Shown here piece after piece: positions 14,061 to 16,319 of a stretch of 28,689 nucleotides of DNA. The position numbers and the translations under genes were made by a program. The notes beneath the pieces are model-generated. The model saw only the letters and a list, made by a program, of their open reading frames with translations, did not search any database and had not been told where the DNA came from. Source of the stretch: an uncultured Lachnospiraceae bacterium (GTDB lineage Bacteria > Bacillota > Clostridia > Lachnospirales > Lachnospiraceae). The first letter of the stretch is position 1. Every line of letters begins with the position of its first letter. The stretch covers positions 1 to 28,689 of the forward strand of contig UQVK01000043.1 in NCBI GenBank assembly GCA_900544445.1. The letters are read 5' to 3'.

Positions 14061-14130
14061 ATTCTGTCGCATTCTGTCAGAATCTGCATAAGTTAAACTA
14101 AAAGCATTCTGCCCAAACGGCAGAAAGGAG
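14061..14130 (+). promoter_or_regulatory. Leader of the DUF4474 gene: ATTCTGTC repeats and a hairpin abutting the ribosome site
   Basis: ATTCTGTC stands at 14061-14068 and again at 14071-14078, exactly ten bases on; ATTCTGCC follows at 14106-14113. TTCTGCC (14107-14113) pairs with GGCAGAA (14119-14125), and this stem touches the AAGGAG ribosome site (14125-14130). TAAACT (14094-14099) could serve as a -10, but no good -35 was seen. Confidence 0.4.
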
Positions 14131-14137
14131 CAGATAC

Positions 14138-15427
14138 ATGACGACAACAGGAATCATTCTACTCTCTATCGCCGCTGTCCTTGTCATCGCACTTCTCGCG
14201 GCTTTCCTCGTTCTGAATATACGCGCGCGCCGTTTCCGCCCCACCGTGGATAAGGCGGCCCAACAGGCGGCTCTGAACCGGGATCTTGCGGAAGCGGGCT
14301 TTGCCTATGACAGAAAGGAAGACATTTTCTATTCCCTCATGGACTGCTGGCAGCGGGAAATGGGATACTGTCAGCTCTACGACGAAGGCTCCTCCCTGTT
14401 CAACATGGTGATGCACTGCGAACCCGTCCGTTTTTCCTACGCCGGAAAACGCTGGATGATCGAACTCTGGAAGGGCCAGTACGGAATCACCACCGGAGCG
14501 GAGGTCGGCATCTACAACACCGATCAGGACGATATCCGTACCGAGCGCTTCATCGGACCTTTCTACGACTGCGCACAGGATTCGGAACGTCTTCCCATGA
14601 GCTTTGTGCTTCGCAGGAACGGACGTGTCCTGTTTAAAAGAAAAGCGCTTCACTGGTGGCTCACCGGTTTCAGGCTGGGGGAATTCTCCACCCTGGATTC
14701 CCTCACCATGGATGTGCGCATCCGTTTCCCGAATTCCGAAATGCGGGACGCCTTCCTGGAAGGCCTTCTGGAACTGGGTTACGGCAGCAGGGAATACGCC
14801 GTCCGCGGAAATACTGTGACCGTTCACTATACGAAGCCGCACAGCGTTCAGCCCCTCTCCCGCGGCTCGCTTCAGGAGGCGGCCGTACAGCAGGTCAACA
14901 AAAGCAACTGCGCCTTATTCAGGCAGGCGACGGGAAAATACACGGATACGCTGGATAAACTGGAATATATCAAAGCGCTTGTTCCGGAGCTCTATGAATT
15001 TTTCATGCACTCCCTGTACGCGAAAGGCTTCTATGAAGGCTTCGGCTGGCTGCTGGATCTGATTCACGAACATAACCATGCACCGAAGCCTGTTCCGCCC
15101 ACGCCGCATCCGCCCATGCCTCATCCGCCGAAGCCCTGCCCTCCGGAACCCTGCAGACCGGATCTGTGCTGTCATGCCCGCCGGGCCAACCGGCTCTGCT
15201 GCGGCAATTGTGAGGAATGTCCCTACCGCAGAAGCTCCGGCTGCACAGGCTGCTCCGTCACATACGTTTCTTCGTGCAGCTCTTCCTGCGGAAGCGGGAT
15301 GCGCCGTACATGCGGCTCCTGTCAGCACATGAGCCTGAGCTGCCGCTGCTCAGGGTCTTCCGGGCAGTGCTCTTCCGGACGGACTTCATCTGATTCCTGC
15401 CGGAGGAACCGGGAAGGGAGGGCTTAA
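14138..15427 (+). CDS. Membrane-anchored DUF4474 protein with Pro-rich and Cys-rich tail
   Basis: A 429-residue protein of unknown function. A single transmembrane helix (about 4-28) is followed by the basic NIRARRFR; by the positive-inside rule the body faces the cytosol. The DUF4474-type domain spans about 45-290 (FYSLMDCWQREMGYCQLYD, MIELWKGQYGITTGAEVGIY, LHWWLTGFRLGEFS). A proline-rich spacer (about 315-340, PTPHPPMPHPPKP) leads to a tail with 18 cysteines between 334 and 421, often in pairs or CxxC (CCGNCEECP, CTGC, CGSC, CRC). In a reducing cytosol that favours metal binding over disulfides. AAGGAG precedes the ATG. The phosphoesterase gene starts one base after its stop, so the two are surely co-translated and likely act together. 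Confidence 0.8.
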   Translation: MTTTGIILLSIAAVLVIALLAAFLVLNIRARRFRPTVDKAAQQAALNRDLAEAGFAYDRKEDIFYSLMDCWQREMGYCQLYDEGSSLFNMVMHCEPVRFSYAGKRWMIELWKGQYGITTGAEVGIYNTDQDDIRTERFIGPFYDCAQDSERLPMSFVLRRNGRVLFKRKALHWWLTGFRLGEFSTLDSLTMDVRIRFPNSEMRDAFLEGLLELGYGSREYAVRGNTVTVHYTKPHSVQPLSRGSLQEAAVQQVNKSNCALFRQATGKYTDTLDKLEYIKALVPELYEFFMHSLYAKGFYEGFGWLLDLIHEHNHAPKPVPPTPHPPMPHPPKPCPPEPCRPDLCCHARRANRLCCGNCEECPYRRSSGCTGCSVTYVSSCSSSCGSGMRRTCGSCQHMSLSCRCSGSSGQCSSGRTSSDSCRRNREGRA

Positions 15428-15428
15428 C

Positions 15429-16319
15429 ATGCCTTCCCTCACCGCAAAACTCGATAAGCTTTATTCCACCTCGGCCGTCCTGCCCTTTGACAACAGCTCC
15501 CGGATCATCCTCATGAGCGACTGCCACAGAGGACAGGGCAACGGAGCCGACAATTTTCTCCCCAACAGCATGATTTTTCAGGGGGCTCTGGAATACTATT
15601 ATCAGAACGGATACACCTATATCGAGCTGGGAGACGGAGATGAGCTCTGGGAAAACCGCTGCATCGGCGTAATTTTGCGCACCTACAGCCGCCTCTTCCG
15701 GCTGCTGGGGCAGTTCCAGAAGGAAAACCGGCTTTTCCTGATTTACGGCAACCACGATATCATAAAGCGCAGAAAAAGCTTTGTCCGCGCCGCCTGCGAC
15801 CTCTATGCCTGCGACGCACCGGAGGAGCCGGAAAATATTTTTCAGCAGACAAGGGCTTCGGAAAGCCTGATTCTGGAAAATCGTGACACCCTGCAGCGCC
15901 TGTTTCTGGTACACGGTCATCAGGGCAGCCTTCTGAACGACGAGCTGTGGCCTCTGGGCCGTTTTCTGGTGCGCTATCTCTGGCGGCCTTTGGAAATCAT
16001 CGGCTTCACCGCTCCCACAGGCGCCGGCCGCTCCCGGAAGCTCATGGAAAAGATTGAACGGCAGCTCTGCTCCTACGCTTCCGCCACCGGCCGCATCCTC
16101 ATCGCCGGCCACACCCACAGGCCCGTCTTCGCCCAGCCCGGTACCTGCCCCTATTTCAACGACGGAAGCTGCGTCCATCCGCAGTGCATCACCGGCATTG
16201 AGATCAGGGCCGGAGGCATCCAGCTTGTGCGCTGGGCCGTGGCGTCAGATCCCCAGCGCCGTCTGGTGATCCGCCGGGAAATCCTGAATGGGCCGGTGGA
16301 GCTGGGGGAATATGGATAA
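15429..16319 (+). CDS. Calcineurin-like metallophosphoesterase
   Basis: A 296-residue cytosolic protein with the metallophosphoesterase signature set in order: DCH (31-33), GDGDE (68-72), GNHD (107-110), VHGH (161-164) and AGHTH (226-230). These residues hold the two catalytic metal ions. UDP-2,3-diacylglucosamine hydrolase-like and other phosphodiesterases share the layout, but the substrate here is unknown. Three further cysteines lie in the C-terminal part (CPYFNDGSCVHPQC, 240-253), an uncommon addition that echoes the Cys-rich neighbour. The ATG at 15429 follows the DUF4474 stop by one base, with GGGAGGG inside the end of that gene as ribosome site. Confidence 0.88.
   Translation: MPSLTAKLDKLYSTSAVLPFDNSSRIILMSDCHRGQGNGADNFLPNSMIFQGALEYYYQNGYTYIELGDGDELWENRCIGVILRTYSRLFRLLGQFQKENRLFLIYGNHDIIKRRKSFVRAACDLYACDAPEEPENIFQQTRASESLILENRDTLQRLFLVHGHQGSLLNDELWPLGRFLVRYLWRPLEIIGFTAPTGAGRSRKLMEKIERQLCSYASATGRILIAGHTHRPVFAQPGTCPYFNDGSCVHPQCITGIEIRAGGIQLVRWAVASDPQRRLVIRREILNGPVELGEYG

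Follow-up and report, generated by a model that had tools for sequence, protein, structure and literature searches.

What is the role of a membrane-anchored DUF4474 protein that is encoded directly ahead of a calcineurin-like metallophosphoesterase? The question is raised by contig UQVK01000043.1 from an uncultured Lachnospiraceae bacterium (assembly GCA_900544445.1), a stretch of 28,689 nucleotides called the window throughout, in which gene A (the DUF4474 protein) and gene B (the enzyme) are separated by 1 base between the stop codon of A and the ATG of B. A preliminary description of the window had listed the two adjoining open reading frames (ORFs), a proline spacer and a tail of 18 cysteines in about 90 residues, and all of these were seen again at the positions collected in Table 1. 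It had also stated that no function was described for the pairing; DUF4474 (PF14751) was likewise not found named in the limited literature searched. As judged from sequence, the pair very probably belongs to sporulation and to the sigma-K regulon, and a function of the enzyme at the membrane is proposed more tentatively, the chances being rather against it.

Conservation of the gene pair

For the family-level sample, 200 genomes from the family of G001 were searched, matches of at least 228 bits being counted as full-length DUF4474 and matches with E <= 1e-25 as the phosphoesterase. Full-length DUF4474 was found in 41 of the 200 genomes and the phosphoesterase in 45, including all 41 that carried DUF4474. 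In G143, one of the 41, the sole phosphoesterase match was at paralogue level (33% identity, on another contig), and in G027, G094 and G129 the enzyme was encoded on a different contig from DUF4474. Three of the four phosphoesterase genomes outside the 41 carried a distant form (36–39%) and the fourth, G074, a decayed pair (L061) with both genes in pieces, in a genome positive for SpoIVA. Among 47 distinct loci, the enzyme gene lay directly downstream on the same strand and within ~200 nt in 38; the nine others were four contig ends (L006, L031, L038, L046), a duplicate (L032, of L015) and four loci with no enzyme next door (L012, L015, L033, L036). For the class-level sample, 343 genomes were drawn and 13 intact new loci inspected (L062–L073 and L075), with the enzyme adjacent in 10 (not in L066, L069 or L070). 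The combination noticed in the window is, by its recurrence in these sequences, a conserved pair.

Two DUF4474 genes each were present in G016 and G130, where the short, tail-less copy adjoins the enzyme and the long-tailed copy stands elsewhere with no enzyme next to it, and G182 also had two, the tailed copy being cut by a contig end (paralogue loci L033, L032 and L038 in G016, G130 and G182, respectively). In L075 (G353), an open anchored-type DUF4474 frame of 414 residues carries an insertion of ~50 residues between profile positions 88 and 90 and has the enzyme gene directly behind it. The loci nearest to the window are L001 and L002 (98%), labelled Eisenbergiella. DUF4474 proteins encoded by [Clostridium] scindens MAGs also appear among the homologues. 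L001 and L007, which are 98% and 69% identical to A, come from one MAG (metagenome-assembled genome; DWYY01, Ca. Eisenbergiella merdipullorum) and are either paralogues or the product of a mixed MAG. The G+C content of A and B together is 58%, compared with 48% for the window.

Promoter-like element upstream of gene A

Regions upstream of A were compared at 43 loci, after omitting duplicates (L020–L023, L032), near-identical loci (L001, L002, L006) and one locus with a misplaced start (L039). Between -65 and -20 relative to A, CATANNNTA was present in 26 of the 43 regions, the window included, compared with a mean of 1.6 and a maximum of 6 over 500 shuffles; of 79 other genes in these loci, one had it. 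For the -35 spacing counts, L008 was omitted as well. AC lay 15–17 nt upstream of CATANNNT in 17 of 27 sites (other windows: mean 3.4, maximum 7), and the sigma-E-type ATA lay 13–15 nt upstream in 0 of 27, which disfavours a sigma-E reading of the Lachnospiraceae set. At 16 nt, AC is found in L004, L005, L006, L008 and L017, and GC in the window, L001, L002, L003 and L007. In C. difficile, according to excerpts of Saujet 2013 (PMC3789822), sigma-E and sigma-K share a common -10 sequence and are distinguished by ATA or AC at -35. The -10 sequence of the sigma-K regulon, CATANNNT(A), is present in the window as CATAAGTTA. No sigma-70-like site was found in the scanned stretch upstream of A.

The cotJ operon served as control; the C. 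difficile cotJB2 operon is down in a sigK mutant and is marked as a probable sigma-K target in the same excerpts (PMC3789822). Up to 520 nt before the CotJB domain were scanned in 28 of 30 loci from DUF4474-positive genomes, L138 and L145 being too short. The AC form was present in 20 of the 28 (shuffle mean 2.5, maximum 7) and the ATA form in 2 (shuffle mean 1.4). As a contrast, CATANNNT was found in 20 of 30 spoIVA regions, 1 with AC and 3 with ATA, in a rough comparison in which several starts were miscalled and visibly internal. By these comparisons, the operon appears to have an upstream AC-N15-17-CATANNNT element resembling the sigma-K-type promoter of cotJ. Orthologues of A and B share this element with sigma-K regulon genes such as cotJ in the same genomes; A and B differ from these genes in that they are not known coat genes and in that their class-level copies carry a variant element.

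That variant was seen in the class-level promoter set (L062–L073; L074, which is broken, and L075 were omitted), where CATANNNTA was present in 1 of 12 regions and TTAACATAAT-N12-GAATATTATG or a near variant was found instead. A pooled form picked after viewing the sequences, G[CA]ATANNNT, matched 12 of 12, with AC at 17 nt in 11 and ATA at 14 nt in 8, and sequences of this kind do not discriminate between sigma-E and sigma-K in this set. Downstream of the -10-like box, the leader hairpin TTCTGCC-CAAAC-GGCAGAA recurs, by eye, upstream of A in Eisenbergiella loci.

Occurrence in spore-formers

SpoIVA was above the cut-off in all 41 genomes with full-length DUF4474, compared with 132 of the 200 family-level genomes (hypergeometric p = 3e-9, descent ignored), and no full-length DUF4474 was found in the 68 SpoIVA-negative ones. 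At the class level, 16 of 16 DUF4474 genomes were SpoIVA-positive, compared with 254 of 343 (p = 0.007, descent ignored); one of the 16, G472, has a broken DUF4474 gene. In the sampled draws, genomes with full-length DUF4474 are spore-formers as far as gene content tells.

Weighing against the link to sporulation, a SpoIVA match was missing in 4 of the 9 genomes that carry Eisenbergiella-type loci (one with no label beyond Lachnospiraceae), including G537 (L002) and G542 (L001, L007), in which the window's two nearest loci lie. Because SpoVAC was found in all nine, the missing SpoIVA is read as MAG incompleteness. Sigma-K-family matches were present in all nine, below the curated cut-off and in pieces in G540; the same model also matches 11 of 14 control genomes.

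The anchored protein and the enzyme

DUF4474 matches A over the whole profile (residues 46–286, E 9.8e-90), which makes A a clear member of the family; the tail and the pairing with an enzyme are outside the Pfam definition, and no function of the family was described in the limited literature searched. The N-terminal hydrophobic segment (Kyte-Doolittle mean 3.17) is followed by RARRFR. Topology was compared in 286 sequences, comprising 46 loci including the window, 120 close homologues (best 120 of 735) and 120 distant homologues (best 120 of 2649). A hydrophobic N-terminal segment was present in 285, and in all 285 the positive charges after the segment exceeded those before it. By the positive-inside rule, A is predicted to be an N-out/C-in anchor with the DUF4474 domain and the tail in the cytosol, as had been proposed from the window alone.

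Metallophos (PF00149) matches B at 29.2 bits (cut-off 21.5). The calcineurin-like metal-ligand motifs D-x-H, GD, GNH, H and GHxH were all present, and the ligands D31, H33, D69, N108, H109, H162, H228 and H230 were invariant in 30 aligned rows, which agrees with the earlier assignment of B as a putative two-metal phosphoesterase. In the VIA comparison, the 23 top-ranking matches to B were all LpxH chains; from LpxH (UDP-2,3-diacylglucosamine hydrolase, calcineurin-like) B differs in sharing 14–18% identity with it, and NCBIfam gave only PRK09453 and YfcE, both below the cut-off. To our knowledge, lipid A synthesis is not expected in Gram-positive-type Clostridia. Nothing linking a metallophosphoesterase with sporulation, the mother cell or the spore coat was found in the limited literature searched.

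The three late cysteines of B on which the preliminary description remarked (C240, C248, C253) are present. C248 and C253 are kept in at least 90% of 30 aligned phosphoesterases and C240 is not conserved. Since C248 and C253 are also kept in the phosphoesterase of L018, whose DUF4474 partner is tail-less, they are not an addition that accompanies the tail; L016 is without C253.

Table 1. Features of the A–B operon in the window (positions in the window; all on the forward strand)
Feature	Position	Strand	Basis
Position of the -35 AC of relatives, GC in the window	14069..14070	+	sequence comparison
-10-like box of the mother-cell sigma type (CATAAGTTA), 51 nt upstream of the A start codon	14087..14095	+	same place in orthologues
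Hairpin in predicted leader, next to ribosome-binding site	14107..14125	+	-10.6 kcal/mol, z -2.96
AAGGAG ribosome-binding site of A	14125..14130	+	sequence
Gene A, 429 aa, DUF4474 protein with membrane anchor and Pro/Cys tail	14138..15427	+	ORF list, Pfam
Single N-terminal transmembrane segment (~residues 6–26)	14153..14215	+	hydrophobicity; model helix 3–32
DUF4474 domain (residues 46–286)	14273..14995	+	Pfam; model
Proline-rich spacer (residues 315–338)	15080..15151	+	sequence
Tail with 18 Cys (residues 334–421)	15137..15400	+	sequence
Gene B, 296 aa, calcineurin-like metallophosphoesterase with a putative LpxH-like fold	15429..16319	+	ORF list, Pfam, alignment

Distribution of the cysteine tail

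A contains 23 cysteines in total, and the chance of the cluster of 18 in its tail is ~3e-17 on an assumed background of 1.2% Cys; the tail of the window has four CxxC and one CxC. Tail cysteines were counted by alignment. At least 8 were present in 93 of the 120 close homologues (best 120 of 735), in 2 of the 120 distant ones (best 120 of 2649) and in 19 of the 47 sequences from the locus set, window included, and at least 8 together with at least 2 CxxC in 53 and 2 of the same close and distant homologues, respectively. A quick tree built from 53 domains (43 anchored, 10 toxin-like) placed the 17 rows with a Pro/Cys tail in one clade (SH-aLRT 96); in two of them, L031 and L038, the contig ends within the tail and leaves 6 and 3 Cys visible. 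Many tails are Pro/Cys repeats of the CPPEPP type, variable in length and without CxxC, and the motif CCGNCEEC recurs in Eisenbergiella tails. Dense CxC and CxxC motifs such as mark metallothionein-like metal stores are not conserved across the family. Tail-bearing L012, L015 and L033 have no adjoining phosphoesterase, and most distant proteins are without the tail yet keep the enzyme. By this distribution, the Pro/Cys tail is an accessory module confined to one Lachnospiraceae clade. A different, basic Cys-rich tail was seen in a few distant homologues (P0335 above all, P0247, P0251, P0265), so that tails rich in Cys may have evolved on more than one occasion, a sign that the enrichment is of some importance.

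Toxin-like relatives of the DUF4474 domain

Weaker DUF4474 matches were found at the C-terminus of long proteins, with RHS repeats in L052, L053 and L056 (the match in L056 came from the genome search and not from the Pfam scan), with LXG in L060 (over the cut-off) and L057 (below it), and with VWA plus TSP3 or CBM2 in L054 and L055. L052–L060 have the layout of polymorphic toxins, namely a delivery region, a C-terminal variable domain and an adjacent small gene, their toxicity being putative. Class-level toxin-like matches in G213, G480, G407, G357, G276:C7 and G451:C53 and the third in G297 were omitted. Ten residues (Q72, G76, W111, G113, Y115, G120, E122, G124, Y126, W174) were identical in all 53 aligned rows (43 anchored, 10 toxin-like), and D82 was kept in 52. 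At L080:1547-8275, a secreted subtilase with PPC and peptidoglycan-binding domains ends in a DUF4474 domain near the anchored form (225.5 bits), and its genome, G451, also carries the anchored form.

Right behind the toxin-like gene, by eye, lay a gene for a protein with a lipobox-like N-terminus in 9 of 10 and 5 of 7 cases (not L077 and L080), that is in 14 of 17, a count in which L053 (no signal sequence in the called frame) and L060 (odd lipobox) are doubtful and two pairs come from one locus each. Ten of these lipoprotein-like neighbours were scanned, giving seven DUF5104 (L053 below the cut-off), two with ankyrin repeats and one with no family; DUF5104 genes of this kind stand behind toxin-like DUF4474 in L052, L053, L054, L055, L060 and L079. 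DUF5104 was found in 18 of the 200 family-level genomes and in 2 of the 41 with the anchored form, and no mention of it was found in the limited literature searched. The arrangement of the genes makes DUF4474–DUF5104 a probable toxin-immunity pair. The parts of the 2012 polymorphic toxin survey drawn on here describe lipoprotein immunity as exceptional and the location of immunity as following that of the toxin (PMC3482391), and TelC acts in the wall zone and has an outward-facing immunity protein (PMC6193138). Because immunity location tracks toxin location, the lipoprotein-like neighbours suggest an extracytoplasmic site of action for the toxin form, and TelC–TipC may, by analogy, be a model for it as an envelope-acting toxin. 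A resembles RHS/LXG polymorphic toxins in that its domain has homologues at the C-terminus of toxin-like proteins, whose genes are followed by a lipoprotein-like one. It differs in having neither a delivery domain, only DUF4474 and one hydrophobic segment being present, nor a lipoprotein partner or adjacent immunity gene, the next gene being the phosphoesterase; A was not filed as a toxin.

Possible roles of the pair

In the preliminary description, one reading offered for the Cys tail was a metal scaffold that would hold zinc or iron and either supply the two-metal enzyme or control it. The 18 cysteines on the predicted reducing side, the CxxC and CxC motifs, the recurrent CCGNCEEC of Eisenbergiella and a neighbouring enzyme with invariant metal ligands would suit this, but the tail is missing from most distant pairs, some tails have no adjoining enzyme, many are CPPEPP-type repeats without CxxC, and C248 and C253 of B are kept without a tail. 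With the tail in one clade and absent from most distant pairs, metal feeding of the enzyme is not supported as the general function; the scaffold is unlikely, and metal delivery by the tail is possible in Eisenbergiella only. Cys-rich proteins occur in the clostridial exosporium, CdeC among them, and A could be mainly a structural spore protein, with the Cys/Pro tail as its working part linking the outer forespore membrane with the coat or exosporium, B having a side function. By description only, A is like CdeC and CdeM in being Cys-rich and a presumed sporulation product, and it differs in its membrane anchor and globular domain, which CdeC is not known to have. A tail variable in length like a structural repeat, the sigma-K-like promoter, the separate basic tail of some distant homologues and the long-tailed paralogues without enzyme all speak for such an anchor; nothing on a cysteine-rich spore coat or a disulfide anchor in the outer forespore membrane was found in the limited literature searched. 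Most distant orthologues, however, are tail-less but keep promoter, anchor and enzyme, so that the core function is independent of the tail, and a mainly structural role is considered improbable.

The domain might also act in late self-destruction, harming the mother-cell envelope and helping spore release with B as modulator. The ten residues common to anchored and toxin-like rows, the envelope target that the lipoprotein-like neighbours suggest for the toxin form, and the predicted sigma-K timing fit this proposal, which is nevertheless unlikely: the anchored form faces the cytosol and the toxin form is seemingly outside, and no immunity gene pairs with the anchored form, as the rarity of DUF5104 in its genomes indicates, which may also mean that this form is harmless. 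Finally, A and B could be a vegetative envelope-stress or signalling pair tied to spore-formers by descent only. Their distribution is patchy and the SpoIVA statistics ignore descent; against this stand the promoter element with its spacing and the cotJ control, the absence of full-length copies from SpoIVA-negative family-level genomes, and the scanned upstream stretch with no sigma-70-like site, and a vegetative role is very unlikely.

The explanation preferred here, which we hold to be about evenly balanced between right and wrong, is that A and B form a sporulation operon expressed late in the mother cell under sigma-K, and that DUF4474 holds an LpxH-like phosphoesterase on the mother-cell side of a membrane. 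Sigma-K would transcribe the operon in the mother cell, and A would be anchored either in the outer forespore membrane or in that of the mother cell and face the mother-cell cytosol, the site of coat assembly. The DUF4474 domain would bind or act on a membrane or envelope component and hold B, as a peripheral enzyme, near its substrate there, a phosphate linked to a lipid or nucleotide. The Pro/Cys tail, an added module of one Lachnospiraceae clade, would most likely cross-link A to the coat by disulfides once the mother cell is oxidised or lysing, and in Eisenbergiella it would possibly bind metal. A bolder extension, which we regard as doubtful, is that an envelope-active domain of RHS/LXG-type toxins, apparently restrained by surface lipoproteins (DUF5104 and others), doubles as a fixed mother-cell sporulation protein; on a cytosolic tether and with its LpxH-like partner, it would address the lipid- or glycan-linked target of the toxins and thereby remodel or dismantle the envelope of the mother cell or forespore late in sporulation.

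If the preferred explanation is true, DUF4474, unnamed in the limited literature searched, would be given a stage, the late mother cell, and a working hypothesis, and a membrane-anchored enzyme pair would join the sporulation machinery of gut Lachnospiraceae, about which little is known. The probable DUF4474–DUF5104 toxin-immunity pair may then share its target with the sporulation protein, and each system would be a handle on the other.
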